From contig NZ_JH417833.1 in NCBI RefSeq assembly GCF_000239295.1, positions 1 to 45,724 of the forward strand: a stretch of DNA of 45,724 nt. The letters run 5' to 3'. The first letter of the stretch is position 1. Each line of letters opens with the position of its first letter. The stretch is from Flavonifractor plautii ATCC 29863 (GTDB lineage: Bacteria; Bacillota; Clostridia; Oscillospirales; Oscillospiraceae). The position numbers and the translations under genes were made by a program. The notes under the pieces are model-generated. The model did no database searches and was not told the DNA's origin. It saw only the letters and a program-made list of their open reading frames with translations. Below are positions 16,066 through 33,902 of the stretch, piece after piece.

Positions 16066-17097
16066 TTAGAAGGTAATAATGCCCTTTTTCAGAATCTTGC
16101 GGTCCAGCAGCTTCTGGTAGGCCTCCACGGCCTGGTCAAAGGTGAAGTAGTCGGAAATAAAGTCCTTAATGTTCAGCTCACCGGAGCGCATCCACTCTAC
16201 CACCTGGGCGTGGGCCTCGCCTTCCTCGCGCTTGCGGGGCATCTGCTGGTAAATGACGCGCCAGTTGTAGTCGGCGGGGCTGAAGTCGATGGTGACCTCC
16301 TCCTTCTCGGGCACGCCGTAGCACAGCACTGAGCCCCGGTCCTTGATAAGCCCCATGCCCTGGTTTACAATGGCGGGGGAACCGGCCGCGTCCAGCACGT
16401 AGTCCACACCGCCGGGGAAGAGCTTGCGCACCTCGGCGCGCACATCGCACTCCTTGCTGTTAATGAGGTGAGTAGCACCGTAATTCCTGGCCTGCTCCAG
16501 TTTTTCGGGCAGGATGTCGCAGGCCACCAGATCCTTTACACCCAGCAGGCTCATAAACTTCAGGTATGTAAGACCCACAGGGCCGCAGCCAAACACTACC
16601 ACGGAGTCCTGGGGCTGGATACCGAAATAGCGGATGTTGGAGAGCACCTCACGGAAGGTGACGATCATAGTGGCGTCCACGGGGTCCAGATCGTCATCCA
16701 GCACCGTCTGAGCAAAGGCGCAGTCGGGAGCGCCGCCGGGCCAGGGGGCTTTGGGATCGCACACCACAGCGTACTCACTCAACGCGCCCCAGCCGGAGCC
16801 CAGCCCAGGCAGGTTTTCCGGGTCAGGATCCACAAAGGGCAGCAGCACCTTGTCGCCCACTTTAAGGCCTTTGACCTTGGAGCCCACCTCCACGACTTCG
16901 CCCACGCCCTCATGGCCCAGCATAATGGGGTAGACCGATTCGGGGAAGCCCTTAAAGGTGCGGTGGATGAGCTTGATGTCGGTACCGCACATGCCGCAGG
17001 CAATGGTCTTAACCAGCGCCTGATACTCGTTGTACCGGGGCTTGTTGACCTCGTGAACGGTAATCCTGCCATCTCTCTCGACGACCAGCGTTTTCAT
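16066..17097 (-). CDS. Medium-chain (zinc-type) alcohol/polyol dehydrogenase lacking the structural-zinc loop
   Basis: A 343-residue MDR-family oxidoreductase. Catalytic zinc ligands Cys37 (GMCGTD) and His62-Glu63 (LGHEG) are present, as is the NAD-binding GCGPVG near residue 170. The four-cysteine structural-zinc loop usual near residues 90-110 is absent; that stretch is Pro/Gly-rich (DPDPENLPGLGSG). This loop-less form occurs in some sugar- and polyol-active members. AGGAGGG lies just upstream of ATG 17097. The gene is divergent from the sugar importer operon, and a GntR-type operator lies in its promoter, so it probably acts in the same pathway, oxidising or reducing a sugar alcohol. Confidence 0.82.
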   Translation of the reverse strand: MKTLVVERDGRITVHEVNKPRYNEYQALVKTIACGMCGTDIKLIHRTFKGFPESVYPIMLGHEGVGEVVEVGSKVKGLKVGDKVLLPFVDPDPENLPGLGSGWGALSEYAVVCDPKAPWPGGAPDCAFAQTVLDDDLDPVDATMIVTFREVLSNIRYFGIQPQDSVVVFGCGPVGLTYLKFMSLLGVKDLVACDILPEKLEQARNYGATHLINSKECDVRAEVRKLFPGGVDYVLDAAGSPAIVNQGMGLIKDRGSVLCYGVPEKEEVTIDFSPADYNWRVIYQQMPRKREEGEAHAQVVEWMRSGELNIKDFISDYFTFDQAVEAYQKLLDRKILKKGIITF

Positions 17098-17124
17098 AAA
17101 AAAGGCCCTCCTTTAATGAATATC

Positions 17125-17152
17125 GTAATATTGGAATGTCACTACATAACAA
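17125..17152 (-). promoter_or_regulatory. Promoter of the 16066 dehydrogenase, containing an operator
   Basis: Minus strand TTGTTA (17152-17147), a 16-base spacer and TATTAC (17130-17125). The 14-base operator at 17135-17148 fills most of the spacer, so bound protein would block RNA polymerase. Confidence 0.5.
17135..17148 (+). promoter_or_regulatory. Predicted GntR operator 1
   Basis: AATGTCACTACATA matches the palindrome TATGTTACTACATA at 12 of 14 positions. The same palindrome recurs at three other control regions of the regulon (17436, 33114, 33952). The assignment to the GntR protein encoded at 33156-33902 is inference from this distribution. Confidence 0.6.
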
Positions 17153-17396
17153 GATAAAAAACAAAGCAGCATGTATTTACAAGAGAGATCATAACACAAA
17201 GCATTTAAAAATGCAACTAAATTAGATGTAAAAATAAAATGAGTTTTATACATATTTCCATGGAAAAGGAAGGAAATAAGCGGTATGATACTGCATATAT
17301 TATGATACAAAAACGGTTCCTATTACGCTTTTGTGCAGAATCAATAATTTGGACAGTGAAAAAACGTAAATTATGCACCAATTTATGAAAGCTATA

Positions 17397-17424
17397 TTGA
17401 CAAGTTTAAAATTTGAGCTATACT
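17397..17424 (+). promoter_or_regulatory. Promoter of the sugar importer operon
   Basis: TTGACA (17397-17402) and TATACT (17419-17424) with 16-base spacing, one of the best promoter matches in the window. It lies at the end of an AT-rich stretch (about 17110-17440) that holds a GCATTTAAAAATGC palindrome (17201-17214) and no gene. The leader to 17563 is about 130 bases and includes a small CGGCCG/CGGCCG hairpin followed by TTTT (17500-17522), a possible attenuator. Confidence 0.7.
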
Positions 17425-17435
17425 AAGGGCAACGA

Positions 17436-17449
17436 TATGTTACTACATA
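17436..17449 (+). promoter_or_regulatory. Predicted GntR operator 2
   Basis: TATGTTACTACATA is an inverted repeat, TATGT and ACATA around four bases, starting about 5 bases past the expected transcription start. It is identical to the site at 33114-33127, 15.7 kb away. Confidence 0.7.
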
Positions 17450-17562
17450 GTATCAATGCAACGCAGTCCGGCGCAAACCGGATACCATAAACACAAAGTC
17501 GGCCGCGGACAACGGCCGTTTTGTAAGCAAGGCAACCCAATACAAGAAGGAGGAACACCCGA

Positions 17563-18738
17563 ATGAAGAAGAAGAAACTCATTGCAACGGTCCTCTCCGC
17601 ATCCATGCTGGTCGGACTGCTGGCCGGCTGCGGCAGCAGCACAGATCCGGCTGAAAGCCCCACTGGCGGCGGTGAAACCACCCCGGCTCAGGGCGAGACC
17701 ACTCCCGCCCAGAACGACGTAGACTATGCCAATTTTGTGATCGATCCCGCCCAGATCCCACAGGAAAAGCTGGACACCACCCTGTACCTGGCCGTCTCTG
17801 TCCGCGGTCTGGAGAACCCGTACATCGCCACGATCAACGAGGGCATGAAGCTCTTTGCCGAATATCTGGATTCCATCGGTCAGAAGTATGAGATGCAGGT
17901 GCTGGATTCCCAGGGCGACAGCGCCAAGGAAGTCGACAACATGCGCCAGTTTGCGGCCAAGGCCAACGGCAACGCCATTGCCTACGCCGATCCCAACGAG
18001 GACACCATTGCCTACTCCCTGGCTGAAGCCATGGCGGAGTCCGGCGGCTATCTGGGCACGGCCTGGAACAAGCCCGCCGATGTGGGCCCCTCCGATCTGG
18101 ACCCCAACTGGGTGATCCACACCTCCCCCGACAACGTGGTGAACGGCTACAATATCGCCAAGGCCCTGTTCGACTCCATGGGCGGCGAGGGCCAGATCTT
18201 CGTGGTGCAGGGCCTGCTGGGCAACACCGCGTCCAACGCCCGTTATGAGGGCCTTCAGAAGGCTCTGGAGGAGTATCCCAACATTGAGGTCGTGGCGGAC
18301 GACACGGCCAACTGGAACACCGACGAGGCTCTGGCTCTGGTCGAAACCTGGCTGACCCAGTACCCCGACGTGGGCGGCATCTGGTGCGCCAACGACAATA
18401 TGGCCACTGGAGCTCTACAGGCGCTGGACGCGGCGGGCCTGAAGGGTAAGGTCGGCGTGTGCGGCATTGACGCCAACACCGATATTGTGGAGGCCATTGC
18501 CAACGGCGAGGCCACCGCTACCGTCTCCTCCAATGGATACCTCCAGGGCGGCTATACCCTGGCCATCTGCTACGCGGCCTGGGCCGGCCTGCTGGACCCC
18601 GCCGCGCTGCCCGCCGACTTCCGCGAGTTTGCCACCCCCACTGTGCTGATTGACAGCCCCGAGGCCGCGAAGGATTGGCAGAACTACAAGCCGGAGTTTG
18701 ACTTCAGCCGTCCCTTTGACTGCCGCGTGGCCGGGTGA
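17563..18738 (+). CDS. Sugar ABC transporter substrate-binding lipoprotein (RbsB-like)
   Basis: A 391-residue receptor. The signal peptide ends in lipobox LLAGC with Cys23 as the lipid anchor, then comes a Gly/Thr/Pro-rich linker to about residue 50. The body is a type I periplasmic-binding fold of the Peripla_BP_4 (ribose/galactose) class: YLAVSVRGLENPYIATINEG at the start, then two alternating domains with ICANDN-type hinge segments (IWCANDNMATGALQALDAAG). Ligands in this class are monosaccharides, polyols and autoinducer-2, so the exact sugar is unknown. AGGAGG is 7-8 bases from ATG 17563. It is the first gene of an operon under the strong promoter and operator just upstream. Confidence 0.88.
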   Translation: MKKKKLIATVLSASMLVGLLAGCGSSTDPAESPTGGGETTPAQGETTPAQNDVDYANFVIDPAQIPQEKLDTTLYLAVSVRGLENPYIATINEGMKLFAEYLDSIGQKYEMQVLDSQGDSAKEVDNMRQFAAKANGNAIAYADPNEDTIAYSLAEAMAESGGYLGTAWNKPADVGPSDLDPNWVIHTSPDNVVNGYNIAKALFDSMGGEGQIFVVQGLLGNTASNARYEGLQKALEEYPNIEVVADDTANWNTDEALALVETWLTQYPDVGGIWCANDNMATGALQALDAAGLKGKVGVCGIDANTDIVEAIANGEATATVSSNGYLQGGYTLAICYAAWAGLLDPAALPADFREFATPTVLIDSPEAAKDWQNYKPEFDFSRPFDCRVAG

Positions 18739-18780
18739 CCGGCCGGAGCACCAATCCTGAATAACGGATAGTCAGAACGG

Positions 18781-18893: not shown

Positions 18894-19910
18894 ATGATGA
18901 AATTAAATCCTGCGGCGACCATCACGGAAGAGTTCGCCGAACGCATCAAGAGTGAAAACCGCAGCGCAAAAATGATGAAGCTGGCACCGTTGATCGTGCT
19001 GGCCTGTCTTGTGGTTGTCTTTCTCATTGTCTGTGGGGCCAGCTTCCTCTCCCCCAAGAATATTATGAATATTCTCAACCAGATGGCCCTGCCCCTGGTA
19101 GTGGCCCTGGGACTGACCTTTGTCATTATGCTGGGCAGCATTGATCTGTCCATTGACGGAAGCGTGGGCATGGCGGGCTCCCTGTTTGCCTGCTTTGTCC
19201 TCAACAGTGAATTTGCGTACGATCTGGGTTTCCTCAGCGTGGTTATTGCGGTAGGTGTGAGCATGCTCTGCGGTCTGCTCATCGGCCTGTGCCACGTCTA
19301 CCTCAAAATCCCCTCCTTCATGGCCTCCTTTGCCTTTATGTACATCTGCAAGGGCATCGGTATGGTCTCTTACCAGGGGCATCCTCCCACGATCAAGGAC
19401 CCCGTTATTACGGCTCTGCCCACCACCACCTTCCTGGGCATCCCCTTTATCACCTGGGTTGCCATTGTGATGTTCCTGCTGTGCTTTTTTATTCAGGAGT
19501 ATACCGCCTTCGGCCGGCATATTTACGCCGTGGGCACCAATGAGAACATTCCGCGCTCTGTGGGCGTCAGCGTGGAAAAAGTCAAAATCGGCGTGTTTAC
19601 CCTGGCCGGTTTCCTGTTCGGCGTGGCGGGCGTCATCGGCGCTATCCGCCTGGGCCAGGGCCAGATCGCCATCGGCGACGACAAGATGTTTCCCGCCCAG
19701 GCGGCCGTGGTGGTCGGCGGCACTTCGCTGGCCGGCGGCAAGGGCGGCGTGGTCAACACCATTGTTGGCGTGCTGATTATGACGGTGCTGGATAACGGCT
19801 TGGTCATGCTGAACGTCAACCCAAACATCCGCACCGGCGTCCAGGGTGTCATCATCCTGGTGGCCGTCATTCTGACTGCGGCCCGCGGCGCCAAGGTCAT
19901 CAGCAAATAA
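18894..19910 (+). CDS. Ribose-type ABC transporter permease (RbsC-like), subunit 1
   Basis: A 338-residue BPD_transp_2 permease with eight to ten hydrophobic segments. Family marks are LGLTFVIMLGSIDLSIDGSVGMAGS near residues 74-98, which is the GGIDLSVG-type segment of RbsC, and VVVGGTSLAGGKGG near residue 275. It forms the membrane channel for the sugar delivered by the upstream lipoprotein. TTGGAG lies 8 bases before ATG 18894. The second permease, after the ATPase, is distinct, so a heterodimeric channel is expected. Confidence 0.88.
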   Translation: MMKLNPAATITEEFAERIKSENRSAKMMKLAPLIVLACLVVVFLIVCGASFLSPKNIMNILNQMALPLVVALGLTFVIMLGSIDLSIDGSVGMAGSLFACFVLNSEFAYDLGFLSVVIAVGVSMLCGLLIGLCHVYLKIPSFMASFAFMYICKGIGMVSYQGHPPTIKDPVITALPTTTFLGIPFITWVAIVMFLLCFFIQEYTAFGRHIYAVGTNENIPRSVGVSVEKVKIGVFTLAGFLFGVAGVIGAIRLGQGQIAIGDDKMFPAQAAVVVGGTSLAGGKGGVVNTIVGVLIMTVLDNGLVMLNVNPNIRTGVQGVIILVAVILTAARGAKVISK

Positions 19911-19923: not shown

Positions 19924-21519
19924 ATGAGTGAACTGGAACGCAAGAACGGCCCCTCCGCAGTGGCGGAGACCGTGACCAAGGACGGCCGCCGGATTGGAAC
20001 GGAGGTCCTCTTCAGCGCCAAGGACATCACCAAGACCTTTGGCGGCACCCAGGCCCTGAAGGGAGTGGAGCTTGAGATCCACCCCGGCGAGATCGTGGGC
20101 CTGGTGGGCGAGAACGGCGCGGGCAAGTCCACCCTGCTGAAGATCATTATCGGCGCCCAGCCCCAGACCTCTGGTACCATGAGCTTCCACGGCGCCCCCT
20201 ATGAACCCAAGACCCCCATGGACGCCAACAAGGCGGGCGTGGGCATGGTCTTTCAGGAGCAGTCCCTGATTGTTACCCTGAACGTGGCCCAGAACATTTT
20301 CTTTGGCCATGAAAAGGACTTCAGGAAGGCCGGCGTCATCAACTGGGCCAAGATGAACCGGGCGGCCGCCGAGGTGCTGGCCGCAGTGGACATCACCAAC
20401 ATCAGCCCCACCAAAAAGGTCAGCGATCTGAACTTCGCCACCCGCCAGATGGTGGAGATCGCCAAGGTTATGAACGTCACCAAGCAGTCCGGCAGCGAAC
20501 ACTGTCTGATCCTGCTGGACGAGCCCACTTCCGTGCTCAACGAGGCTGAGGTGGAAAACCTCTACAAGCAGATGCGCAAGATTGCGGCCCAGGGCCATGC
20601 GGTCATCTTTGTCTCCCACCACCTCAACGAGATTCTGGAGGTCACCGACCGCATCTATGTCTATAAGGACGGCACCAGCGTGGGCAGCCTGGACACCAGG
20701 GACGCCGACGAGGCCAAGCTGTACGAAATGATGGTGGGCCAGTCCACCACCACGGAGTACTACCATCTGGACCGCCAGACCGCACCCCAGGATGATGTAC
20801 TTCTGGAGGCCAAAGACCTGGGCCTGCACGGAATCTTCAAGCATGTCAACTTCCAGCTTCACCGGGGAGAGGTGCTGGGCCTGTGCGGCGTGGTGGGCTC
20901 CGGCGCGGAAGAGGTGTGCGAGGTGCTCTGCGGCGACGAGAAGCCCTCCTTCGGGGAAATCGCGGTCCGCGGCAGGGCCGTCCGCTTCCGCTCGCCCAAG
21001 CAGGCGCTGAGGGAGGGCATCCTTATGATCCCAAAGGAGCGCCTGTTTGAGGGCATCGTCTCTACCCTGTCGGTGGAGGATAACATTGCCCTGTCCAACG
21101 CCAAGCAGATGGCCAAGGGCCCCTTTGTTTCGGGCGCGGCGGTGCGCAGGCAGGCCAAGCACTGGATTGGCGAGCTGCGGATCAAGACCCCCGGGCCCCA
21201 GGCGCTGCTGCGCCAGCTCTCCGGCGGCAACCAGCAGAAGGTGGTATTCTCCCGGGCCCTGGCCAGCGGTGCGGACATCCTGCTGCTCAACCACCCCACC
21301 CGCGGCGTCGACGTGGGCGCCAAGGAGGAGATCTACGCCCTGATCCGCGACATGACGGATGAGGGCAAGGCTGTAATCGTACTGGGCGATACAACAGACG
21401 AATGTATCGGCTTGTGTTCCCGCCTGCTCGTCATGAAGGACGGCCTGGTCACCGGCGAATTTGACGCCCCCGCCGACCACAAGCCCTCCCAGGTTGACGT
21501 GGTCAGCCTGATGATGTAA
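19924..21519 (+). CDS. Ribose-type dual ABC ATPase (RbsA-like) with inactive second site
   Basis: A 531-residue protein with two fused nucleotide-binding domains. Domain 1: Walker A GENGAGKS (62-69), Walker B LILLDEPTS (195-203), switch histidine in FVSHHLNE. Its signature is altered to LNFATRQ. Domain 2 (from about 292) has a non-functional P-loop (GVVGSGAEE) but an intact signature LSGGNQQK (432-439). Its Walker B reads LLLNHPTRGVDVG, so the usual Asp-Glu is Asn456-His457. A degraded domain-2 P-loop is normal in RbsA; loss of the Walker B acids is not. One consensus and one dead ATP site are predicted. It starts 13 bases after the permease stop. Confidence 0.9.
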   Translation: MSELERKNGPSAVAETVTKDGRRIGTEVLFSAKDITKTFGGTQALKGVELEIHPGEIVGLVGENGAGKSTLLKIIIGAQPQTSGTMSFHGAPYEPKTPMDANKAGVGMVFQEQSLIVTLNVAQNIFFGHEKDFRKAGVINWAKMNRAAAEVLAAVDITNISPTKKVSDLNFATRQMVEIAKVMNVTKQSGSEHCLILLDEPTSVLNEAEVENLYKQMRKIAAQGHAVIFVSHHLNEILEVTDRIYVYKDGTSVGSLDTRDADEAKLYEMMVGQSTTTEYYHLDRQTAPQDDVLLEAKDLGLHGIFKHVNFQLHRGEVLGLCGVVGSGAEEVCEVLCGDEKPSFGEIAVRGRAVRFRSPKQALREGILMIPKERLFEGIVSTLSVEDNIALSNAKQMAKGPFVSGAAVRRQAKHWIGELRIKTPGPQALLRQLSGGNQQKVVFSRALASGADILLLNHPTRGVDVGAKEEIYALIRDMTDEGKAVIVLGDTTDECIGLCSRLLVMKDGLVTGEFDAPADHKPSQVDVVSLMM

Positions 21520-21533: not shown

Positions 21534-22541
21534 ATGAAGACAAAAACTCCCAACGTGTCCGGCAGGAGTGCATGGCTGCGGGACAACATCACAAAATACT
21601 TCAGCTTTTCGGCCATCATTATTCTGCTGGTAGCCCTCTCCCTGACCCAGGACAACTTTCTGGGCACCAGCAACCTCAAAAACCTGCTGCGCGACACGGC
21701 GCCTCTGATGATTATGTCCGCAGGCATGACAATGGTGCTTCTGTTCGGCTCCATTGACCTGTCCATGGGCGCGGTGTGCTCCGTATCCAACGTGACCTAC
21801 ATCCACCTGATGCTGGCTTTCCAGGACAGCTTCAGCAATCCTCTCCTCACCAGCCTGGCGGCCATGGCGGTCTCTCTGGCGTTTGGCCTGGCCTCCGGTC
21901 TGGCGCTGGGCATCATTCACGTCAAGCTGAAGGTACCCTCCTTCATCGCCTCCCTGGGCTTTATGTCCCTATGGCAGTCGGTGGCCCTCCTCATCACGCA
22001 GAACCCCGAGTCGGTGCCCAAAGCCCTGTGGGGCACCGTGGAGTGGTACAAGATCGCCTTCGGTGTGGTGGGCCTGCCCCTGATTGTGGCAATCGCCATC
22101 ATCCTGTTCATCCACTGTGTTACCCGTTACACCCCCAGCGGACGGACCATTTTTGCCATCGGCGGCAACGAGCGCACTGCCCGGGTGGCCGGTATGGGCG
22201 TGGATAGGACGAAGATTCTGGTATTTGCCATCAACGGCGTGCTGGCCGCTCTGGCTGGTATCTTCCTGGCGGCCAACCTCCGCTCCAGCGCCCCCACCAT
22301 CGGAGACCCCTTTACCCTAAAGATTGTGGCGGCCTGCGCCCTGGGCGGCACCTCGCTGGCCGGCGGCAAGGGCAGCGAGCTGGGCACCATCCTGGGCGTG
22401 TTTACCGTGGCCATCATTGAAAACGGCATGAACTTTATCGGTGTCAACGCCTACTATCAGAACATTGTCTTTGGTATCTTTGTGTTGGCGGCCATCGCCC
22501 TTACGGTGGACCGCAGCATCCGCGGCCAGATCGTCAAGTAA
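21534..22541 (+). CDS. Ribose-type ABC transporter permease, subunit 2
   Basis: A 335-residue BPD_transp_2 membrane protein. It carries MTMVLLFGSIDLSMGAVCSV and CALGGTSLAGGKGSELG, the same two family landmarks as subunit 1, but the sequences otherwise differ markedly. AAGGAGG precedes ATG 21534 and the gap to the ATPase gene is 14 bases. With subunit 1 it probably forms an asymmetric channel. Confidence 0.88.
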   Translation: MKTKTPNVSGRSAWLRDNITKYFSFSAIIILLVALSLTQDNFLGTSNLKNLLRDTAPLMIMSAGMTMVLLFGSIDLSMGAVCSVSNVTYIHLMLAFQDSFSNPLLTSLAAMAVSLAFGLASGLALGIIHVKLKVPSFIASLGFMSLWQSVALLITQNPESVPKALWGTVEWYKIAFGVVGLPLIVAIAIILFIHCVTRYTPSGRTIFAIGGNERTARVAGMGVDRTKILVFAINGVLAALAGIFLAANLRSSAPTIGDPFTLKIVAACALGGTSLAGGKGSELGTILGVFTVAIIENGMNFIGVNAYYQNIVFGIFVLAAIALTVDRSIRGQIVK

Positions 22542-22560: not shown

Positions 22561-23142
22561 ATGTCCGATGTAAAACCGTTTGTGCTGGACTTTGACCTTG
22601 TAAGCGGCTTCTGCACGAGCGGCAAGGTCAAGCCCACCCAGCGCAGAGTGTCCGACATGGTCGCCCAGTTTGCCAATGAGGCGGCGGCCCGGGCCATGGT
22701 GGAGGGGGGCGACCCCCTGCTGTATGAGTTCTACGGCCTGGATCTGCCCGAAGACGACTCCGGCGTGCTCCAGTTCGGCACCACCATCCTCTACCCCGGA
22801 AAGGTGGGGGAGGAGTATTTCATGACCAAGGGCCACTTTCACACCATCCTGGACACCTCCGAGATCTACTACGGCCTCAGCGGCCACGGCATGATGCTGA
22901 TGGAGACCCCCGAGGGCCAGGTGGACTGGAAGGAGATCGGCCCCGGCGAGGCCCTCTACGTCCCCGGACGCTGGGCCCACCGCAGCATCAACACCGGCAC
23001 CGAGCCTCTGGTGATGTTCTTCGTCTACCGGGGGGACGCCGGCCACGACTACGGCACCATCGAGGAGAAGGGCTACCGGAAGCTGGTGGTGGAGCGGGAC
23101 GGAAGGCCCGCCGTCATCGACAACCCCAAATGGAAGGTGTAG
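22561..23142 (+). CDS. Cupin-type (archaeal-type) glucose-6-phosphate isomerase
   Basis: A 193-residue metal-dependent isomerase of the Pyrococcus-type GPI cupin family, interconverting glucose 6-phosphate and fructose 6-phosphate. Cupin motif 1, KGHFHTILDTSEIYYGLSG, gives two His and a Glu; motif 2, YVPGRWAHRSINTG, gives the fourth ligand. The C-terminal DAGHDYGTIEEKG and DNPKWKV segments are characteristic. The ordinary Pgi fold is unrelated. Inside a sugar catabolic operon it may act on G6P or on another hexose 6-phosphate. AAGAAGGAG precedes ATG 22561, and its 3' end overlaps the HAD gene by 13 bases. Confidence 0.88.
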   Translation: MSDVKPFVLDFDLVSGFCTSGKVKPTQRRVSDMVAQFANEAAARAMVEGGDPLLYEFYGLDLPEDDSGVLQFGTTILYPGKVGEEYFMTKGHFHTILDTSEIYYGLSGHGMMLMETPEGQVDWKEIGPGEALYVPGRWAHRSINTGTEPLVMFFVYRGDAGHDYGTIEEKGYRKLVVERDGRPAVIDNPKWKV

Positions 23143-26080: not shown

Positions 26081-27073
26081 CTAGGGCTCCACGTCCAGCA
26101 TCGCCATGGTGGCGGGCATTTCGTGGGCGGTATTGACCTTCTCCTCGTCGGTGACCAGATCGAAGCAGGAGACGATGATCTTGTCCCCCCAGACGCACGG
26201 CTCGCCCGGCTCGTCCAGCTCGCCGTGGAAGCCGTCGGTGTCGGGGGAGCAGGCCATCCGCGTCACCCGGCCGTCGGGGGTGATGCGGGCGATGGCGTTG
26301 GCCGAGAAGTCGGCCACGTAGATGTTGCCGTAGGGATCGATGGTCATGCCGTCGGTGGACTTCAGGTTGGCCGGATCACAGGCCCACTTGCGGTTCTCCT
26401 TCACCGAGCCGTCGGGGTTGAAGGTGATTTTGTGCACCACCCCGTCGCCGAAGTTGCCGACGTAGAGGTTGCCGTCGTGGTCGAACACGATGCCGTCCAC
26501 GCCGTACTGGCACTTGGGGTTCTCGGTGATAAAGGTGAGGAAGATGTGGGGATCGGCCAGGGTGTTGGTGCAGTGGATGCCCTCGGCGTCCAGGGGGAAG
26601 CGGTAGACACAGCTCATGAGCTTGCCGCTGTCCGTCTTCTGGCGGGTCATGCAGCTCTGGGTGACGTACATGTAGTCCCCCCAGATGCGGATGCCGTTGG
26701 GGTGCTCCATGTTGTCAGCCACCACGGTGCACTTCACCACCCCCGCGTCGTTGAGCCGCAGGCGGAGGATGCGCCCGGTGAACACCATGTGGGGCTCTCC
26801 GGTCCAGCCCGCGTTGTCCACCAGATAGAGGTCGCCGTCGGGGCCGAACTCGATGCCCATGGCCCGGGCCTCACCGGTGTACTCGTTGCGCGGCACGTCA
26901 AACCACTTCTTGATGTTGCGGTCCTTGTCGATTTTCAGCACGCAGCTGGGCATGGACAGATCCGCAAAGTTGGGACAGGACAGAATCAGGTTGCCGTCCC
27001 TGTCGATGGCCATGCCGTCGGGGGTGCACACCAGCTCCTCCGGCAGCAGGGTGAACAGCTTGGATGTTTGCAT
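26081..27073 (-). CDS. SMP-30/gluconolactonase-family sugar lactonase
   Basis: A 330-residue six-bladed beta-propeller of the SMP-30/Gluconolactonase/LRE class. Repeated GNLYVGNFGDGVVHKI, GNIYVADFSANAIARI and GDLYLVDNAG strands with conserved Asp and Asn are typical; members hydrolyse aldonolactones using a divalent metal. It lacks a signal peptide, so it is cytoplasmic. Two starts exist: ATG 27082 is only 2 bases from AGGAGG, while ATG 27073 is 11 bases away; the second is preferred. It is the last gene of the minus-strand operon. A second, unrelated lactonase-type protein heads the same operon (32120-33076). Confidence 0.82.
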   Translation of the reverse strand: MQTSKLFTLLPEELVCTPDGMAIDRDGNLILSCPNFADLSMPSCVLKIDKDRNIKKWFDVPRNEYTGEARAMGIEFGPDGDLYLVDNAGWTGEPHMVFTGRILRLRLNDAGVVKCTVVADNMEHPNGIRIWGDYMYVTQSCMTRQKTDSGKLMSCVYRFPLDAEGIHCTNTLADPHIFLTFITENPKCQYGVDGIVFDHDGNLYVGNFGDGVVHKITFNPDGSVKENRKWACDPANLKSTDGMTIDPYGNIYVADFSANAIARITPDGRVTRMACSPDTDGFHGELDEPGEPCVWGDKIIVSCFDLVTDEEKVNTAHEMPATMAMLDVEP

Positions 27074-27091
27074 AAAGCGCATTGCCTCCTT

Positions 27092-27976
27092 TTACGCGGT
27101 CAGCTCCTTGAGGAACCGGCAGGCCCGGCCCGCCATCTCGTCCAGCCCGGCCTCCCCGGCCCCGCCGCTGAGATCCCGCCAGACCTTGATATCATAGGGA
27201 ATGGTACCCCCCATGAGCACGAAGGGCTCCATCACAATGGCCCCCTGGTAGTTCACCTGCTTGAGGGCGGCGGCCATGTCCTTCCAGGGCAGGCGGTTGG
27301 TGGAGCCGGCGGGGCGGCGGTTGTTCTCCCCCACGTGGAAATGCCCCAGCCAGGGGCCCGCCTCCAGAATGGCGTCCACCATGCTGTCCTCCTCGATGTT
27401 CATGTGGAAGGTATCCAGCAGCACCCGGGCGTTGGGACTGCCCAGGCGCTTGACAAACTCCACGCCCTCTTTGGCGGTGTTGAGCAGGTACTGCTCGAAG
27501 CGGTTGACCACCTCGCAGCAGTAGAGCACGCCGCAGTCCTCCGCCACCTTCATGAGCCGGGACATGGACTCCAGGGCAAGCTCCTCCTTGCGGCGCTTCT
27601 CGTCCAGGGTGATTCCGTGGTCGGGCAGGGCCTGCCACCCGGCGTAGGACACGCCGTTGAGGATGGCCGCCCCCACCTTGGGCATGCTCTCCAGGATGCG
27701 GGTGACATGGCGGATGCCGTTCTCCCGCACCGCCGGATCGTCGCTGGCCAGGTCGTATTTGGCCTCCAGGCCGATGGAATAGGTGATGCCCAGGCCGTTG
27801 TGATCGGCGCAGGCCTTCAGCTCCCGCAGCCTGGCGTCGTCGTAATAGCCCCACTCGGCGGAGGCCACCTCGCAGATGTCAAAGCCCAGCCAGGCCAGCT
27901 TCTCCATCAGGGGTATGTATGCAATCTCGTCCCAGTTGTGGCTCCAGAAGCCGTAGTGCATTCCAATCGGGTTCAT
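27092..27976 (-). CDS. D-allulose (psicose)/D-tagatose 3-epimerase family protein
   Basis: A 294-residue TIM-barrel epimerase. The four metal ligands of ketose 3-epimerases fall at Glu155 (CEVVNRFE), Asp188 (LLDTFHMNIEEDS), His214 (GHFHVGENNRR) and Glu250 (IVMEPF). The wording around them (NTAKEGVEFVK, DIKVWRDLSGGA) closely resembles the known D-psicose 3-epimerases of Agrobacterium and Clostridium as I remember them. The expected reaction is C3 epimerisation of a free ketose, such as allulose to fructose or tagatose to sorbose. Start ATG 27976 follows a GAGG site. The gene lies 8 bases after the aldolase and 18 before the SMP-30 gene. Confidence 0.88.
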   Translation of the reverse strand: MNPIGMHYGFWSHNWDEIAYIPLMEKLAWLGFDICEVASAEWGYYDDARLRELKACADHNGLGITYSIGLEAKYDLASDDPAVRENGIRHVTRILESMPKVGAAILNGVSYAGWQALPDHGITLDEKRRKEELALESMSRLMKVAEDCGVLYCCEVVNRFEQYLLNTAKEGVEFVKRLGSPNARVLLDTFHMNIEEDSMVDAILEAGPWLGHFHVGENNRRPAGSTNRLPWKDMAAALKQVNYQGAIVMEPFVLMGGTIPYDIKVWRDLSGGAGEAGLDEMAGRACRFLKELTA

Positions 27977-27984: not shown

Positions 27985-28629
27985 TCACTGGCCCCGGGCA
28001 GCGCGAATCTTCTCCACAAACTGGCGGGCGGTCTCGGTAATCTTGCCGTAGTCGCCGGTCTTGGCCCCGGCGGTCAGGCTGCCGCCCGCGCCCACGGCCA
28101 CCGCGCCGGCCGCAATCCACTCGGCCACGTTGTCCAGAGACACGCCGCCGGTGGGCATCAGCTCGGCCTGGGGGATGGGGCCGTGGATGGACTTGAGAAT
28201 CTTCGGCCCGAACAGCTCGCCGGGGAACACCTTGATGATGTCCGCACCCGCCTCCATGCCGGCCACCACCTCGGCGATGCTCATGGCGCCGGGCATGCAG
28301 GCCACGCGGTAGCGGTTGCACAGGCGGACGGTGTCGCCGTTGAAGTAGGGGCTGACCACATACTGGGCGCCGGAGAGGATGGCCATGCGGGCGGTCTCGG
28401 GGTCCATGACGGTGCCCGCGCCGATGACAAAGTCGGTGCCGTCATACTCTCTGGCCATCTTCTCAATGATGGCGTTGACGCCGGGGGTGGTGTAGGTCAG
28501 CTCGATGCCGGCGCAGCCGCCCTCGATGCAGGCCTCGGCGATGCGCATGGCGTCGTCGGCGTCCTTGGCGCGGACCACGGCCACCAGGCCGCAGGAGCGA
28601 AGCTTGGCAAGTACCTGTTCCTTTTTCAT
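27985..28629 (-). CDS. KDPG/KHG-type 2-keto-3-deoxy-acid aldolase
   Basis: A 214-residue class I aldolase of the Eda family. The Schiff-base lysine is Lys133 (IIKVFPGE), the catalytic acid Glu43 (GIELTYTTPG), and MPTGGVSLDN forms the phosphate-binding loop. It would split a 2-keto-3-deoxy sugar acid, normally phosphorylated, into pyruvate and an aldehyde. AAGGAGG is 8 bases before ATG 28629. The longer frame from 28707 runs into the kinase gene and was rejected. The usual partner, a sugar-acid dehydratase, is not visible in this window. Confidence 0.9.
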   Translation of the reverse strand: MKKEQVLAKLRSCGLVAVVRAKDADDAMRIAEACIEGGCAGIELTYTTPGVNAIIEKMAREYDGTDFVIGAGTVMDPETARMAILSGAQYVVSPYFNGDTVRLCNRYRVACMPGAMSIAEVVAGMEAGADIIKVFPGELFGPKILKSIHGPIPQAELMPTGGVSLDNVAEWIAAGAVAVGAGGSLTAGAKTGDYGKITETARQFVEKIRAARGQ

Positions 28630-28642: not shown

Positions 28643-30172
28643 TTACGCATTCTTGTGGGACGCCATGTACTCGTAGACGGGCAGCATGGCCTTGTAGCAC
28701 ACCTCAAATGCCTCCTTCACCGGGCCGTAGGCGGCCACGGCTTCGGGGTCGGGCTCCACCGTGCGGTTGAGCTCGAGCATCTGGTCGATGACCTCAAAGC
28801 CCTTGAACACCCCCACGCCCACGCCGCCGGTGACCGCGGCGCCCATGGAGGTGGCCTCCTCCAGCAGGACGGGCACCTTGATGCGGGCGTTGTAGACGTC
28901 GGCCATCATCTGGCACCAGAGGGCGCCCTTTGCGCCGCCGCCCACCACCAGCAGCTCGTCGATGGGGATGCTCCGGCGGAAGGACTCCAGGATAATGTTC
29001 AGGTTGAGGGTGACCCCCTCCAGTACGGCCCGGAAGAGGTCGCAGCGCTGGTTCTCCATTTTCAGCCCCAGCCAGGCGGCCGTGGCATCCGGGTTCCAGC
29101 GGGGGGCCCGCTCCCCCAGCAGATAGGGCAGGAAAAGGACGCCGTTGGCGCCTACGGGGCTCTTTGCCGCCTCCGCGTTGATGAGATCGTAGGGGCTGAT
29201 GCCCTGCACTTTGGCCACGGCGGTCTCATATTTGGCCACCTGGCCCTTGAGCCAGTTGTAGGAACTGCCGCCGGCCTGCATGGTGCCGGTGGGCGAGTAC
29301 AGCCCGGGGACGATGTGGGCCCAGGTGAAGGTGCGCATCTCCTCGTCAAAGAGGGGCTTCTCGCTGGTGGTGGCCACCCAGGCGGAGGTGCCGATGCAGC
29401 TAAAGGTGCGGCCCGGGCTGATGGAGCCGGCGCCCACGTTGGAGCACAGGCCGTCGCCGCCGCCCATGACCACCGGCGTGCCCGCCTTCAGGCCGGTCTG
29501 CCCGGCGGCCCAGGGGGTGACCTCCCCGGCCACGGTGGTGGAGGGGACGATCTCAGGCAGCTTGTCGCCGTCGATGCCCGAGGCGTTGACGATCTTGTCC
29601 GACCACTGGAGGGTGTTCAGATCAATGCAGGCGTTGGAGGTGGCGTCGGAGGGCTCGGTATAAAACTTCCCCGTCAGGCGCAGGACGATGAAGTCCTTGG
29701 CGTTGAGGACCTTGTAGGTCTTGGCATACACCTCCGGCTCGTTGTCCCGCACCCACATGAGCTTTTGCAGGCCGTAGGAGGCGCTGTTGCGGTGCCCGGC
29801 GATGTGGTAGAAGTCCCGCAGGGAGATCTGCTCCCCCAGGGCGGCGGCCTGGGCCTGGGCCCGCTGGTCGGCCCAGATGATGGAGGGCCGCAGGGGGTTG
29901 CCCTGCTTATCCACGCACAGGCACCCCATCATCTGGCCGGAGAAGGAGACTGCGGCGATGTCGCCGGGGTCGATGCGGGCCTTGTCAATCAGGTTGCGGC
30001 TGGTGACGCAGATGGCCTTCCAGAAATCCTCGGGATCCTGCTCGGCCCAGTTGGTGTTGAAGTAGTGGCAGTCGTAGCGGAACACCTCGCTGGTGATCAT
30101 TTTCCCCTCGTCGCTGAACAGGGTTGCCTTGTTGCCGGAGGTGCCCAGATCGTGGGCCAGTATGTATTTCAT
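28643..30172 (-). CDS. FGGY-family carbohydrate kinase (xylulokinase-like)
   Basis: A 509-residue sugar kinase of normal family length. The N-terminal phosphate loop is DLGTSGNKATLF, the substrate segment includes SGQMMGC and WADQRA, and the C-terminal ATP-binding signature has VGGGAKGALWCQMMADVYN. FGGY kinases phosphorylate ketopentoses, glycerol, fuculose, gluconate and similar compounds. The sequence is most like xylulokinases, but specificity should be left open. In context it could phosphorylate the ketose made by the epimerase or a dehydrogenase. It is 15 bases downstream of the 2-hydroxyacid dehydrogenase gene. Confidence 0.9.
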   Translation of the reverse strand: MKYILAHDLGTSGNKATLFSDEGKMITSEVFRYDCHYFNTNWAEQDPEDFWKAICVTSRNLIDKARIDPGDIAAVSFSGQMMGCLCVDKQGNPLRPSIIWADQRAQAQAAALGEQISLRDFYHIAGHRNSASYGLQKLMWVRDNEPEVYAKTYKVLNAKDFIVLRLTGKFYTEPSDATSNACIDLNTLQWSDKIVNASGIDGDKLPEIVPSTTVAGEVTPWAAGQTGLKAGTPVVMGGGDGLCSNVGAGSISPGRTFSCIGTSAWVATTSEKPLFDEEMRTFTWAHIVPGLYSPTGTMQAGGSSYNWLKGQVAKYETAVAKVQGISPYDLINAEAAKSPVGANGVLFLPYLLGERAPRWNPDATAAWLGLKMENQRCDLFRAVLEGVTLNLNIILESFRRSIPIDELLVVGGGAKGALWCQMMADVYNARIKVPVLLEEATSMGAAVTGGVGVGVFKGFEVIDQMLELNRTVEPDPEAVAAYGPVKEAFEVCYKAMLPVYEYMASHKNA

Positions 30173-30187
30173 CGCTGTCCTCCCGCC

Positions 30188-31111
30188 CTACAGGCCCAGA
30201 TCGTGGATGAGGTTGGCAGTAGCCATGCGCCCCATGTTGCGGGACGCGCCCGCCGTGGAGGCGGCGCAGTGGGAGCCGAGCACCACGTTGTCCAGGGTAA
30301 ACCAGCGGGGATCCTTGGGCGGCTCGGAGGAGAAGGCATCGATGCCCGCGCCGCAGAGGCGGCCCGCCTCCAGCGCGTCCAGCAGGGCGTTTTCATCAAT
30401 GAGGCCGCCCCGGGCGGTGTTGATCAGGATGGCGTCCGGCTTCATTTTGGCCAGCTCCGCCGCGCCGATGAAGTTCTCCGTCTCCGGCGTCAGGGGCAGG
30501 TGGAGGGAGATGACGTCGCACTCGGCGAAAATCTCGTCGGGGGCGGCGCGGGTGATGCCGTGGGCCTTGGCGTACGCCTCGTCCCAGAAGGGGTCGTGGG
30601 CCAGCACCTTCATGCCGAAGCCCTGGGCCCGCTGGGCCACGTTGCGGCCGATGGCCCCCAGGCCCAGGATGCCGATGGTGCCGCCGGTCACGTCCCGGGT
30701 GGTGATCTTCTTCCAGTCGCCCTGGCGGCAGTGCTGGTCAATGAGCACCGTCTTGCGGGCCACCGCCAGGAGCAGGGCCATGGCGTAGTCCGCCACCGCC
30801 TCAGCGTTGGCGCCCACCGTGCGGGAGACCTTGATATCCCGGGCCTTGGCGGCGTCCAGATCAATGTTGTCCACCCCCACGCCGTATTTGGCGATGGCCT
30901 TGAGCTTGGGGGCGGCGGCGATCACCTCGGCGTCTATGGGATCCACTCCCACGATCACGCCGTCGCAGTCGGCCAGCAGGGCTTTCATGCCCTCCCTGTC
31001 CAGGATCCCGCCCGTCTCATTGCGCACCACCTCCAGGCCGGCGGCCCGGAGCATGGCAAAGACCTCGGGATCGGTTTTCCCGTAAGAACGGGGTGTGGTA
31101 AGTACCTTCAT
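30188..31111 (-). CDS. D-isomer-specific 2-hydroxyacid dehydrogenase (SerA-like)
   Basis: A 307-residue NAD-dependent dehydrogenase of the phosphoglycerate dehydrogenase group, without the C-terminal regulatory domains of longer SerA proteins. Motifs: ILGLGAIGRN (nucleotide fold), INTARGGLIDE (substrate arginine), the catalytic Glu in FSSEPP and the catalytic His in GSHCAAST. It oxidises or reduces a 2-hydroxy/2-keto acid. In this operon a sugar-acid intermediate is more likely than serine synthesis. It ends 15 bases before the kinase gene. Confidence 0.88.
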   Translation of the reverse strand: MKVLTTPRSYGKTDPEVFAMLRAAGLEVVRNETGGILDREGMKALLADCDGVIVGVDPIDAEVIAAAPKLKAIAKYGVGVDNIDLDAAKARDIKVSRTVGANAEAVADYAMALLLAVARKTVLIDQHCRQGDWKKITTRDVTGGTIGILGLGAIGRNVAQRAQGFGMKVLAHDPFWDEAYAKAHGITRAAPDEIFAECDVISLHLPLTPETENFIGAAELAKMKPDAILINTARGGLIDENALLDALEAGRLCGAGIDAFSSEPPKDPRWFTLDNVVLGSHCAASTAGASRNMGRMATANLIHDLGL

Positions 31112-31132
31112 GACAGAGCCCTCCCCTTGGCG

Positions 31133-32074
31133 TCACTTTCTCATTTCCCGGGCCAGCCGGTCGCAGGCGGCCAGCCGCTCTCCGGTGATGTCGATGTGGA
31201 AGACCTCGGCGATCACCTGGGTCCAGCCATGGATAAAGTATGTCCAGCCGTCCTCAATCAGAAGCCCCCGGCGCTCCCGCTGGGCCTCCGCCTGGTGCAT
31301 GAACTCCAGGGTGCCCCGGTAGTTGAGCTCCCACACCAGGCCGTTCTCGGGGAATTTGCAGTGGTCGGTGAGGGGGGAGCCGGGCCGGTCCTTGCCCAGC
31401 CCGGTGGCGTTGATGACCAGGGAGCCGGCGGGCAGGGCCTCCACAATCCTGTCGTTGAGCTCGGGGGTCTTGCACAGATGGTAGCTCATGGGGACGTTCA
31501 GGTACTCCAGGATGCGCACGCCCTCGGCCAGGCGGGGGGCGGAGCGGTTGTTCAGGTGGATGCGGCTGGGCAGATCCTTGCCGTGCCGCTCCTCATTGCC
31601 CAGGTAGGCGGAGATGGACAGGGCGGAGCCGCCGGCGCCGATGATGCACACCTCCGCGCCGGTCTTAAGCCAGTGGCCCTCGGGCACGAAGGCGTCCAGG
31701 GCCAGGCCGGAGGAGATGGGATCCTTGGCGTGGGCGCGGAGCTGGCCGTCCAGCTTGGAGATGGAGGACAGCTCCCCGAAGCGCTGGGCATAGGGGTCCA
31801 GGTAGTCGAACATATCCTTTGCGGCGTTATACATGTCAATTTTGTGTGTGGTCACCAGCGCGCCCAGGGACAGGGGGTCATCCCGGAAGAACTGCACCAC
31901 CGCCCGGTAGTCCTCGGCGGGGGCGTGGATGGGCAGGTCGATGCCCTTGATCTCCGCGTCCAGCCCCAGCTCCTTGGCCCAGATGGGGAACATTTTCATG
32001 ATGGAGGACTGTCCGGTGGTGACGCCCACAAAGTACATGGTGGGTCGTTTGGCGGGTTCGGGGAGTTTGATCAT
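31133..32074 (-). CDS. Divergent shikimate-dehydrogenase-family (AroE-like) oxidoreductase
   Basis: A 313-residue two-domain dehydrogenase. The catalytic Lys-Asp pair is conserved (Lys78 in VTTHKIDM, Asp127 in LALDAF), and IIGAGGSALS is the dinucleotide loop, as in AroE. The substrate carboxylate site and C-terminal helix differ: FVGVTTGQSSIM replaces the GxPxxHSxSP motif, INATGLG replaces NATPLG, and the C-terminus (FIHGWTQVIAEVFH) lacks the usual pattern. So it is probably not an aromatic-pathway enzyme but a family member recruited to sugar catabolism. ATG 32086 overlaps the AAAGGA site; ATG 32074 is spaced from it and preferred. Confidence 0.8.
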   Translation of the reverse strand: MIKLPEPAKRPTMYFVGVTTGQSSIMKMFPIWAKELGLDAEIKGIDLPIHAPAEDYRAVVQFFRDDPLSLGALVTTHKIDMYNAAKDMFDYLDPYAQRFGELSSISKLDGQLRAHAKDPISSGLALDAFVPEGHWLKTGAEVCIIGAGGSALSISAYLGNEERHGKDLPSRIHLNNRSAPRLAEGVRILEYLNVPMSYHLCKTPELNDRIVEALPAGSLVINATGLGKDRPGSPLTDHCKFPENGLVWELNYRGTLEFMHQAEAQRERRGLLIEDGWTYFIHGWTQVIAEVFHIDITGERLAACDRLAREMRK

Positions 32075-32119
32075 GGTCAGGCGCATCCTTTCTTGACTGA
32101 TTTGGTATTGAAATACCGG

Positions 32120-33076
32120 TCAGCCGGCGAAGAGCCGCCGGCAATTGAGCACGGTGAAATCCGCAAGGGTTCCGGGGGGGAAGCCGGCCGCCTCCAGCCG
32201 GGGCAGAAAGCGCTCCAGCAGGTAGCACAGGCTGATCTCGCCGCCGTAGGCGGCCATGCGCTGGGCGGTGGTGTCCAGAGACAGGAGCAGCCTCTGGGCA
32301 TACCCCCGCTCACACATGTGCCGCAGCAGCGCCATCTCCTCCTCGTCGGAGTGGTACTTGAAGCGGCCGATGGTGTCGTAGTCCAGGTACACGCCGGTGG
32401 CGGCGATGGCGTCATGGGGGCCGAAGTCGGCGGCCTGCCGGTCCACGTGGCAGACGATGAGCCGTTCCGGCGTCAGGCCCGCCCGAAAGCAGAGCTCCAG
32501 GGCGGGCAGGGTATTCTCCCCCCGCTCCGTGTGGAGCATCAGCGGCACCCCGCAGCACACCGCCGCCCGGGCGGCCGCCCGCAGCAAAACGGCGTACCGG
32601 CCCTCGGCGCCTTCGGCCGGAATGGCGGCCTTTACCAGGCCCGCCCGAAAGGCCGTCGGCTGCGCCGGGCGGCGGTCCGGCTCGGGCCGCCAGGGGAGCA
32701 TGCCCTCCAGCAGCTCACCGCAGTAGAGGTCGTACAGGCCCTCCTCATCCAGGCTGTGGACCCAGCAGTCCGCCGGGTAAAAGCCCAGCAGATGGTAGCC
32801 GGTAGAGGCCGCCACCGCCACGCTGCTCTCCCGCGACAGCGCGCCGAGGCGCTCTGCATCCCGTCCTGCGGCCACGGGCTGGGCGTCCGCCAGGAAGCCT
32901 CCCCCCGCCGCCCGGTAGGCGCGCAGCTCCTCCAGTGAACGAGCCGGGTCGTCCAGCCGGAGGGCGGGGTTTTTCTCCGCCATGGGCGTCCGGTGGACAA
33001 AGATGTGTTCATGGATCTGGCTGTGCCCCAGCGCGTCCGGTGCGATGGGGCCGCTGACGGTTTGCACATGGAACAT
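32120..33076 (-). CDS. Phosphotriesterase-family (PTE-like) lactonase
   Basis: A 318-residue amidohydrolase-superfamily protein. The binuclear metal site of PTE proteins is complete: His22 and His24 (IHEHIF), bridging Lys149 (GLVKAA), His182 (LHTERG), His210 (VCHVD) and Asp268 (SLDTT). Characterised relatives include sugar-lactone and sugar-phosphate-lactone hydrolases, which fits here better than organophosphate hydrolysis. AGGAGG is 7 bases before ATG 33076. It is the first gene of the seven-gene minus operon, whose promoter carries the exact GntR operator. Confidence 0.82.
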   Translation of the reverse strand: MFHVQTVSGPIAPDALGHSQIHEHIFVHRTPMAEKNPALRLDDPARSLEELRAYRAAGGGFLADAQPVAAGRDAERLGALSRESSVAVAASTGYHLLGFYPADCWVHSLDEEGLYDLYCGELLEGMLPWRPEPDRRPAQPTAFRAGLVKAAIPAEGAEGRYAVLLRAAARAAVCCGVPLMLHTERGENTLPALELCFRAGLTPERLIVCHVDRQAADFGPHDAIAATGVYLDYDTIGRFKYHSDEEEMALLRHMCERGYAQRLLLSLDTTAQRMAAYGGEISLCYLLERFLPRLEAAGFPPGTLADFTVLNCRRLFAG

Positions 33077-33111
33077 GACCTGACCTCCTGATAAAGTATC
33101 GTAGGATTGTA

Positions 33112-33140
33112 ACTATGTTACTACATAAAAGGGGAAGCAA
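33112..33140 (-). promoter_or_regulatory. Promoter and GntR operator 3 of the lactonase-to-SMP-30 operon
   Basis: Minus strand TTGCTT (33140-33135), a 17-base spacer and CATAGT (33117-33112). The palindrome TATGTTACTACATA (33114-33127, plus-strand reading) overlaps the -10 and spacer and is identical to operator 2. Confidence 0.65.
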
Positions 33141-33155
33141 ATTCCGCGCGTGCAC

Positions 33156-33902
33156 TCACTCGCGGAACAGCTCGACACGGAACCGGCTCTGGTCGCCCCG
33201 GTAGTGGGCAAAGGAGAGCTCAATCAGCTTGCCGCTCTGGTTATAGCCGATGGTCTGGAAATAGTGAACCGGGCGGCCCCGCTTCAAGCCCAAAACCGCG
33301 GCGTCCTCCGGGTCGGCGGCCCGGGCCTCGCAGATACGGGTGACGTGGGTGACCCGGGTGTCGTCCCGCTTGGACAGCACCTGATAGAGGGACTCCCGGT
33401 TAAAGTCGTGTCCCAGGATAAAGCTGCACGCTTCATAGGGCAGGTAGGTCTCCACCCGGACGATGGGCTCGTCGTCGGCAAACCGCTTGCGGTAGAGATA
33501 GATGGCCTTGGTGCCCGCGGGCAGCTCCATAAGCTGCGCCACCTCGGGCTCCAGCTCCACCAGCTTGAGATCCAGTACCTCGGTGCTGGGGGTACGGCCG
33601 GTGCTGCGTACGTCGTCGTCAAAGGACTGGATGCTCTGAATGAAGCCCTGTACCAGCTTGGGGTGGGCCACAAAGGTGCCCTTGCTCTTGATGCGGTACA
33701 GGTGCTCCTCCCGCACCAGGTCGGAGATGGCCTGGCGCACGGTGGTACGGCTGATGCCGAACATCTGGCTGAGCTCCATTTCGGTGGGAATCATGCTCCC
33801 CACCGGGTAATTTCCGTTGTCGATCTCCTCCAGGATCAGCTTTTCAAGCTGGAAATACAGGGGAATAGGCACATCCTTATCCAGTCTCTTGTCTTCCAGC
33901 AT
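33156..33902 (-). CDS. GntR-family (HutC subfamily) transcriptional regulator
   Basis: A 248-residue repressor-type protein. Residues about 10-78 form the GntR winged helix (PLYFQLEKLI, then IPTEMELSQMFGISRTTVRQAI and KSKGTFVA). The rest is a UTRA effector domain that binds a small ligand, usually a sugar or sugar phosphate. It is placed upstream of the minus sugar operon but with its own promoter, and a degenerate copy of the operator palindrome lies there, suggesting autoregulation. Its probable targets are the four units carrying that palindrome. The inducer is probably a pathway intermediate. Confidence 0.9.
   Translation of the reverse strand: MLEDKRLDKDVPIPLYFQLEKLILEEIDNGNYPVGSMIPTEMELSQMFGISRTTVRQAISDLVREEHLYRIKSKGTFVAHPKLVQGFIQSIQSFDDDVRSTGRTPSTEVLDLKLVELEPEVAQLMELPAGTKAIYLYRKRFADDEPIVRVETYLPYEACSFILGHDFNRESLYQVLSKRDDTRVTHVTRICEARAADPEDAAVLGLKRGRPVHYFQTIGYNQSGKLIELSFAHYRGDQSRFRVELFRE

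Follow-up and report, generated by a model that had tools for sequence, protein, structure and literature searches.

The stretch of DNA analysed here, called the window, covers positions 1 to 45,724 of a contig of Flavonifractor plautii ATCC 29863 and carries a set of sugar- or polyol-catabolic genes grouped around a dehydrogenase of the shikimate dehydrogenase (AroE) fold. A preliminary description of this DNA had placed about 17 such genes at 16066-33902, and all 17 were found within that interval. They form two blocks that converge at about 26.0 kb, one running on the plus strand from a ribose-type importer to a zinc-dependent dehydrogenase (ZnB), the other on the minus strand from a GntR-type regulator to an SMP-30-like protein; a further zinc dehydrogenase, ZnA, is divergent from the importer operon. 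The extent first given was too small, as the set reaches past 33902 to include a glyoxalase-fold protein and a third zinc dehydrogenase (ZnC), about 19 genes in total. These last two genes also adjoin the operon headed by a phosphotriesterase-like (PTE) hydrolase in the orthologous loci L016, L022, L023, L024 and L027. The genes and the operator sites discussed below are as follows.

16066-17097, minus strand: ZnA, zinc-dependent dehydrogenase (PF00107/PF08240), with its own promoter and operator; below every NCBIfam equivalog cut-off
17136-17147: operator ATGTCACTACAT before ZnA
17437-17448: operator ATGTTACTACAT before the importer operon
17563-18738, plus strand: ribose-type substrate-binding lipoprotein (PF13407; best solved relative 2rjo, E 3.6e-55)
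18894-19910, plus strand: ABC permease 1, RbsC type
19924-21519, plus strand: ABC ATPase with two domains, RbsA/AraG type
21534-22541, plus strand: ABC permease 2, RbsC type
22561-23142, plus strand: cupin-type phosphoglucose isomerase homologue (PF06560; Pyrococcus-type PGI 1j3p, E 7.8e-62)
23130-23795, plus strand: HAD phosphatase (PF13419), without a match in the orthologous stretch of genome G160
23837-24952, plus strand: GldA-like iron-type alcohol dehydrogenase (NF006941, 405 bits, cut-off 336)
24987-26006, plus strand: ZnB, zinc-dependent dehydrogenase (PF08240/PF00107)
26081-27082, minus strand: SMP-30-like beta-propeller, possible lactonase (PF08450, 68 bits; solved relatives weak)
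27092-27976, minus strand: ketose 3-epimerase (NF051856, D-psicose 3-epimerase, 326.5 bits, cut-off 300)
27985-28629, minus strand: KDPG/KHG-type aldolase (PF01081; NF005119, 286.2 bits, cut-off 238)
28643-30172, minus strand: FGGY sugar kinase, xylulokinase-like (PF00370/PF02782; TIGR01312, 380.0 bits, cut-off 380.25)
30188-31111, minus strand: NAD-type 2-hydroxyacid dehydrogenase (2HADH), PGDH-like (PF02826)
31133-32086, minus strand: AroE-fold dehydrogenase, hub of the cassette (no Pfam match at E 0.001; model pLDDT 93.1)
32120-33076, minus strand: PTE-type hydrolase, proposed phospho-sugar lactonase (PF02126)
33115-33126: operator ATGTTACTACAT before the PTE operon
33156-33902, minus strand: GntR/UTRA regulator, proposed to bind the operator (PF00392 and PF07702)
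33953-33964: weak operator with one mismatch before GntR, exact in L024, L025 and L027
34087-34479, minus strand: glyoxalase-fold protein (PF00903), linked in orthologous loci
34493-35548, minus strand: ZnC, zinc-dependent dehydrogenase (PF08240/PF00107), linked in orthologous loci

A shared operator and the reach of the regulon

Comparison of the upstream stretches of orthologous loci yielded a palindrome, ATGTNRYNACAT, of which the window holds three exact copies against 0.07 expected, placed before ZnA, the importer operon and the PTE operon. Searching the whole 3.82 Mb genome for its flanked 15-base form, WATGTNRYNACATWS, gave three copies, one at each of these promoters (reversed control, two copies). 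By itself, the one-mismatch site before GntR falls short of significance, with four matches against 1.87 expected and 10 of 100 shuffles reaching four, and no operator was seen when the stretch upstream of ZnC was inspected.

A scan of the genome collection for relatives of the AroE-like gene found 131, and the best 80 of the 131 were compared together with six loci from the bacterial family of F. plautii, 86 loci in all. The Bacillota group among them (37 loci) was assigned by hand, in agreement with the labels of the AroE tree for the rows shown there; that tree was built from 78 of 87 AroE-like sequences (length 290-360 aa). The 37 Bacillota loci (577 kb) contain 46 operator sites and the reversed control none, whereas the 49 non-Bacillota loci (904 kb), which are mostly GC-rich and have other regulators, contain one site, as does their reversed control. 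Among the Bacillota sites, 41 of 46 lie no more than 350 bp upstream of a homologue of a window gene and none lies inside such a gene. L039 shares the DNA of three sites with L041, which leaves 41 distinct contexts, and counted in this way 37 of 41 are upstream of a cluster-gene homologue; the remaining four comprise an L039 site that precedes a binding-protein gene by 40 bp and three L042 sites without such a neighbour. The 29 loci left out of the derivation of the motif hold 24 sites (three shared with L041) against 1.3 expected and at most four in 20 first-order shuffles. Genes standing directly behind an operator encode ZnA, PTE, the AroE-like enzyme, GntR, the binding protein, GldA, 2HADH, the FGGY kinase, the cupin, SMP-30 and the glyoxalase-fold protein. 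In L042 one operator precedes GntR and another precedes an uninterrupted run of 2HADH, PTE, AroE-like, cupin and aldolase genes.

Linkage points in the same direction. In the relative G160 (loci L016 and L106) both blocks recur, placed differently with respect to each other and lacking the HAD gene, and the persistence of the blocks through this rearrangement, along with three exact operators before three transcription units, argues for more than a chance neighbourhood. The AroE-like gene was found in 6 of 250 genomes of the family, and the same six hold the strong cupin matches (E 4e-28 or better); five other family genomes have only weak and partial cupin matches (E 1.7e-4 to 9.6e-4). Across the phylum, 5 of 398 genomes carry the AroE-like gene, one of them as a partial match. 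None of the four same-genus genomes searched has it, so the cluster is accessory. Given an operator that is conserved next to genes of the cluster across many genera and a gene content kept together through rearrangement, the gene set behaves as one coherent catabolic regulon, most of whose genes are apparently switched together, and the single regulon first put forward is thereby supported, also by the co-occurrence of the AroE-like and cupin genes within the family. From its sequence and position, the GntR/UTRA protein encoded in the cluster is the proposed repressor acting at the palindrome. The importer and PTE operons are convergent and have separate promoters, as would be expected if two independently regulated operons had come together by chance. 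However, the same operator stands before both operons, in the window as well as in orthologous loci, and the blocks stay together after the rearrangement in G160. Chance convergence of unrelated operons is thus highly improbable, and we reject it on the common operator and the conserved linkage.

Keyword searches of the open-access literature found no description of this gene set, in keeping with the earlier remark that no described pathway uses it. The regulon therefore appears to be undescribed, as far as open-access literature goes, where absence is no proof.

Two observations concern the distribution of the cluster. Genome G078 has two copies each of the AroE-like and cupin genes, in two separate clusters (L017 and L018) whose importers and partner genes differ, and the two clusters may serve two substrates. 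In the tree, the AroE-like protein of L058, a locus labelled Mycobacterium sp. KBS0706, clusters with its Inquilinus limosus counterpart (100/100); either the genus name or the contig may be wrong.

The five-enzyme cassette and its proposed chemistry

At the core of the cluster is a cassette of five enzymes: the cupin isomerase homologue, the AroE-fold dehydrogenase, a lactonase, the PGDH-like 2HADH and the KDPG-family aldolase. Linkage was counted in the 61 of 86 loci that are well flanked, with 5 kb on either side of the AroE-like gene (20 Bacillota and 41 others). All five genes lie within 8 kb of the AroE-like gene in 38 of the 61 (13/20 Bacillota, 25/41 others), and the oxidative branch suggested in the preliminary description thus reappears as a recurring cassette. 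Taken singly, the cupin lies within this distance in 16/20 Bacillota and 41/41 other loci, 2HADH in 17/20 and 31/41, the lactonase in 16/20 and 35/41, and the aldolase in 16/20 and 25/41. The presence of any one of lactonase, 2HADH and aldolase goes with that of the other two (six Fisher tests, p 7e-6 to 0.013, uncorrected for kinship). The aldolase is found near the AroE-like gene only where 2HADH is present (25 of 31 loci with it against 0 of 10 without outside Bacillota, and 16 of 17 against 0 of 3 in Bacillota). The compact form in L042 consists of GntR followed by 2HADH, PTE, AroE-like, cupin and aldolase genes, and in Rhizobiales the row reads cupin, aldolase, AroE-like, 2HADH and a metallo-beta-lactamase (MBL)-fold hydrolase, followed by a regulator annotated as MurR/RpiR or SIS-domain, with the importer and FGGY kinase close by and mostly divergent. 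The lactonase slot is filled by PTE in 28 of 86 loci and by the MBL-fold protein in 39, never by both; the latter count comes from a tblastn recount, selection of open reading frames having given 35 and missed some.

The AroE-like protein does not reach the NCBIfam shikimate dehydrogenase equivalog (27.8 bits at best, cut-off 221), although its model has the shikimate dehydrogenase fold (Foldseek, 3toz_D, E 1.7e-18, TM 0.67 by query length). A structure-based alignment of 54 of 65 sequences of suitable length, the window protein included, shows K82 and D122 invariant in all 54 rows; these are the presumed catalytic Lys-Asp pair, matched by motif to Lys65 and Asp102 of AroE. An NRS..R motif is likewise conserved (R181 in 54/54, S182 in 53/54 and R185 in 53/54 rows), and, as we take this motif by analogy with AroE to be of the NADP type, it suggests that the enzyme uses NADP. 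The cupin scores 113.4 bits against a PF06560 cut-off of 20.7 and keeps H92, H94, E101 and H140, presumably its metal ligands, in 65/65 rows. For the PTE-type protein the nearest solved structure is 3msr, with 3pnz third and 3ovg also among the nearest; all three are, we assume, phospho-sugar lactonases. Its residues H22, H24, K149, H182, H210 and D268, which we take to form a binuclear metal site, are kept in at least 92% of 28 rows. The MBL-fold protein is weakly similar to SaxA and UlaG. The 2HADH retains R234, E263, H281 and D173 in at least 92% of 65 rows, with the R/E/H triad present, and also scores to glyoxylate/hydroxypyruvate reductase profiles. The aldolase passes a second KDPG/KHG cut-off besides that listed above (TIGR01182, 182.1 against 156.05) and has the Schiff-base lysine K133 and E43 in 42/42 rows.

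Based on these assignments, a ribose-type importer would bring in a rare hexitol or hexose, with a pentitol as an alternative. The zinc and GldA-like dehydrogenases would convert it to a ketose, the 3-epimerase would adjust the ketose and the FGGY kinase would yield the ketose phosphate, which the cupin isomerase would turn into an aldose phosphate. The AroE-fold enzyme, acting as an analogue of glucose-6-phosphate dehydrogenase, would then oxidise C1 to give a phospho-lactone, the PTE-type (or MBL) lactonase would open this to a phospho-aldonate, and the PGDH-like 2HADH would oxidise C2 to a 2-keto-phospho-aldonate. Cleavage between C3 and C4 by the KDPG-family aldolase would release hydroxypyruvate together with glyceraldehyde 3-phosphate (from a C6 compound) or glycolaldehyde phosphate (from a C5 compound). 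This order is the simplest in which every cassette enzyme acts a single time. We infer the substrates, the step order and the cleavage products throughout, and consider this chemistry to be a possibility that falls a little short of even. As the F. plautii genome has no match to G6PD_C, the AroE-like route would be this genome's own phospho-aldose oxidation.

Several observations weigh against this scheme. KDPG aldolases normally use pyruvate, and hydroxypyruvate would be an unusual product; at an aldolase position with arginine in 35/42 rows, the window's protein has threonine. Cupin residue 162 varies between clades (His in 25 and Gln in 40 of 65 rows). The PTE-type protein does not reach the phospho-furanose lactonase equivalog NF045706 (99.1 bits, cut-off 630; the L044 protein scores 131.4). 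The MBL-fold enzyme of L087 does not reach that of UlaG (43.3 bits, cut-off 306), its best NCBIfam match being NF001911 (59.8 bits, cut-off 144) and its best PDB match also another hydrolase. The exchange of PTE for MBL might have been read as many independent events of mutual exclusion, but the AroE tree rules this out: it is a single deep split (PTE 29, none 8 on the Bacillota side; MBL 32, none 9 on the other), about one event. No lactonase lies nearby in 6/41 non-Bacillota and 4/20 Bacillota well-flanked loci, and among 11 genomes searched, four lack any MBL relative and a fifth (L100) has only a 28% match; relatives are present in the genomes of L055, L063, L065 and L083. Genomes without an MBL relative indicate that the cupin/AroE-like pair can exist without the rest, and in L058, L073, L050, L095 and L100, where no lactonase, 2HADH or aldolase gene is near and every genome but that of L100 is without an MBL relative, the pair may have a simpler use. 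The F. plautii genome also lacks a PF02595 glycerate kinase, while a gene of the DUF4147 type is present on another contig, and it carries three ILVD/EDD genes on other contigs.

The last of these bears on an alternative in which a dehydratase encoded elsewhere forms a 2-keto-3-deoxy-phosphoaldonate that is split to pyruvate in the Entner-Doudoroff manner, with 2HADH acting otherwise, for example in reducing hydroxypyruvate or glyoxylate. The three ILVD/EDD genes, the KDPG/KHG cut-offs passed by the aldolase and the matches of 2HADH to glyoxylate/hydroxypyruvate reductases agree with such a route. However, no dehydratase was recognised among the 19 window genes or the annotated gene groups common to the loci, and the strict dependence of the aldolase on 2HADH in the 61 well-flanked loci is not what it predicts; we think it quite unlikely. 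One locus, L020 (genome G196), has at 14853-18214 a DeoC-like gene and an open reading frame that looks, on visual inspection, like a dehydratase of the enolase superfamily, which would suit a branch by dehydration.

The AroE-like enzyme could instead be a ketose- or polyol-phosphate dehydrogenase that forms no lactone, with the cupin isomerising its product and the lactonase acting on a lactone made by a zinc dehydrogenase. Loci L058 and L073 hold the importer, kinase, cupin and AroE-like genes with no lactonase, 2HADH or aldolase nearby, as this alternative would allow, and Foldseek places 5-ketofructose reductase (7cok, 7col) at ranks 28, 31 and 38 of the matches to the AroE-like protein. 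That reductase is described as related to shikimate dehydrogenases in PMC7954740, but the same paper reports that a putative shikimate dehydrogenase of Clostridium pasteurianum resembling it is inactive on 5-ketofructose. Moreover, identity of the AroE-like protein to 5-ketofructose reductase is 16-18%, equal to that for ordinary AroE, and the compact L042 cassette has, 2HADH aside, no other dehydrogenase to make a lactone. A role as a ketose- or polyol-phosphate dehydrogenase is accordingly unlikely in our judgement.

In its widest form, the C1-oxidation scheme would amount to a new phospho-sugar oxidation route beside glucose-6-phosphate dehydrogenase and the Entner-Doudoroff pathway, with a cupin-fed, NADP-using AroE-fold dehydrogenase, interchangeable PTE and MBL lactonases, a C2 dehydrogenase and a hydroxypyruvate-releasing aldolase, used on rare hexitols and ketoses by members of at least five phyla. 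We put this forward very tentatively, as somewhat doubtful. If true, it would at once assign a role to an AroE-fold subfamily without a Pfam match, the bacterial cupin phosphoglucose isomerases and two lactonases of orphan type, and would define how Clostridia of the gut and Alphaproteobacteria of the soil break down rare sugars and sugar alcohols, sweeteners among them. Through its operator, the regulon can be tested directly.

Candidate substrates

Rare ketoses had been suggested as entry compounds. The epimerase agrees with this, as it reaches the D-psicose 3-epimerase equivalog cut-off and a query of 252 of its residues matches D-tagatose 3-epimerase 4xsl (E 1.1e-67); a specific substrate is not supported. 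The FGGY kinase falls 0.25 bits short of the xylulokinase XylB cut-off. Together, the epimerase and the polyol-type dehydrogenases fit rare ketoses and hexitols. The binding protein of Ensifer locus L087, whose gene stands next to those of the kinase, cupin and AroE-like protein, closely resembles 4RY9 of Verminephrobacter eiseniae (phmmer E 1.4e-119; 62% identity), although its own model is poor (pLDDT 50.4). The ligand in 4RY9 is probably D-talitol, the same compound as D-altritol; a text search for the entry code found nothing. Resting on this ligand, there are hints of altritol, allulose and tagatose as candidates. The window's binding protein is of a different type, with 2rjo as its best match, so its ligand may differ. 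Four-carbon polyols (erythritol, threitol) were also considered and are disfavoured on chemical reasoning, as the phosphate at C4 of a tetronate prevents closure of the 1,4-lactone.

Elsewhere in the window, positions 4643-7364 encode an FAD-dependent oxidoreductase with a BFD-type [2Fe-2S] domain followed by a pyridine nucleotide-disulphide oxidoreductase, a pair that presumably resembles the GlpA-type glycerol-3-phosphate dehydrogenase system. At 44356-45567 a gene for a DUF6064 protein, of a family of unknown function, overlaps the 5' part of an AddB-like gene on the opposite strand, and one of the two starts is probably misplaced.

Comparison with known systems

Similar parts occur in several described systems. 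Catabolism of D-altritol and galactitol in Agrobacterium tumefaciens reportedly uses a CUT2 importer, polyol dehydrogenases, an FGGY-type kinase and a ketose epimerase, ending in fructose 6-phosphate; we know of no AroE-like enzyme, cupin isomerase, lactonase or 2HADH in it. The Thermotoga-type myo-inositol pathway has in IolM and IolO counterparts that the cluster's zinc dehydrogenase and TIM-barrel epimerase match weakly. It was rejected as a model for the cluster, the scores lying far below the cut-offs (194.5-198.5 at best and 118.8 for ZnA against 450; 99 against 300), and no inositol dehydrogenase is among the annotated genes of the set. The UlaG-like MBL-fold hydrolase of the non-Bacillota versions recalls the L-ascorbate (Ula) pathway, but the match is weak and not the best one, and no other ula gene was recognised in the annotated regions of the compared loci. 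With 5-ketofructose reductase the proposed AroE-like enzyme would share an AroE fold acting on a sugar, though the low identity given above is all that links them and the substrate of that reductase is unphosphorylated.

The oxidative pentose phosphate and Entner-Doudoroff pathways differ from the cluster in their enzymes, as its AroE-fold dehydrogenase and its PTE- or MBL-fold lactonase are non-homologous to theirs. In addition, unlike the Entner-Doudoroff pathway, the cassette has a 2HADH and no dehydratase, 6-phosphogluconate dehydratase not being found among the window genes. Nevertheless, the logic we propose would be the same as in the upper part of these pathways, an aldose 6-phosphate passing through a phospho-lactone to a phospho-aldonate, which would then be channelled to a KDPG-family aldolase.

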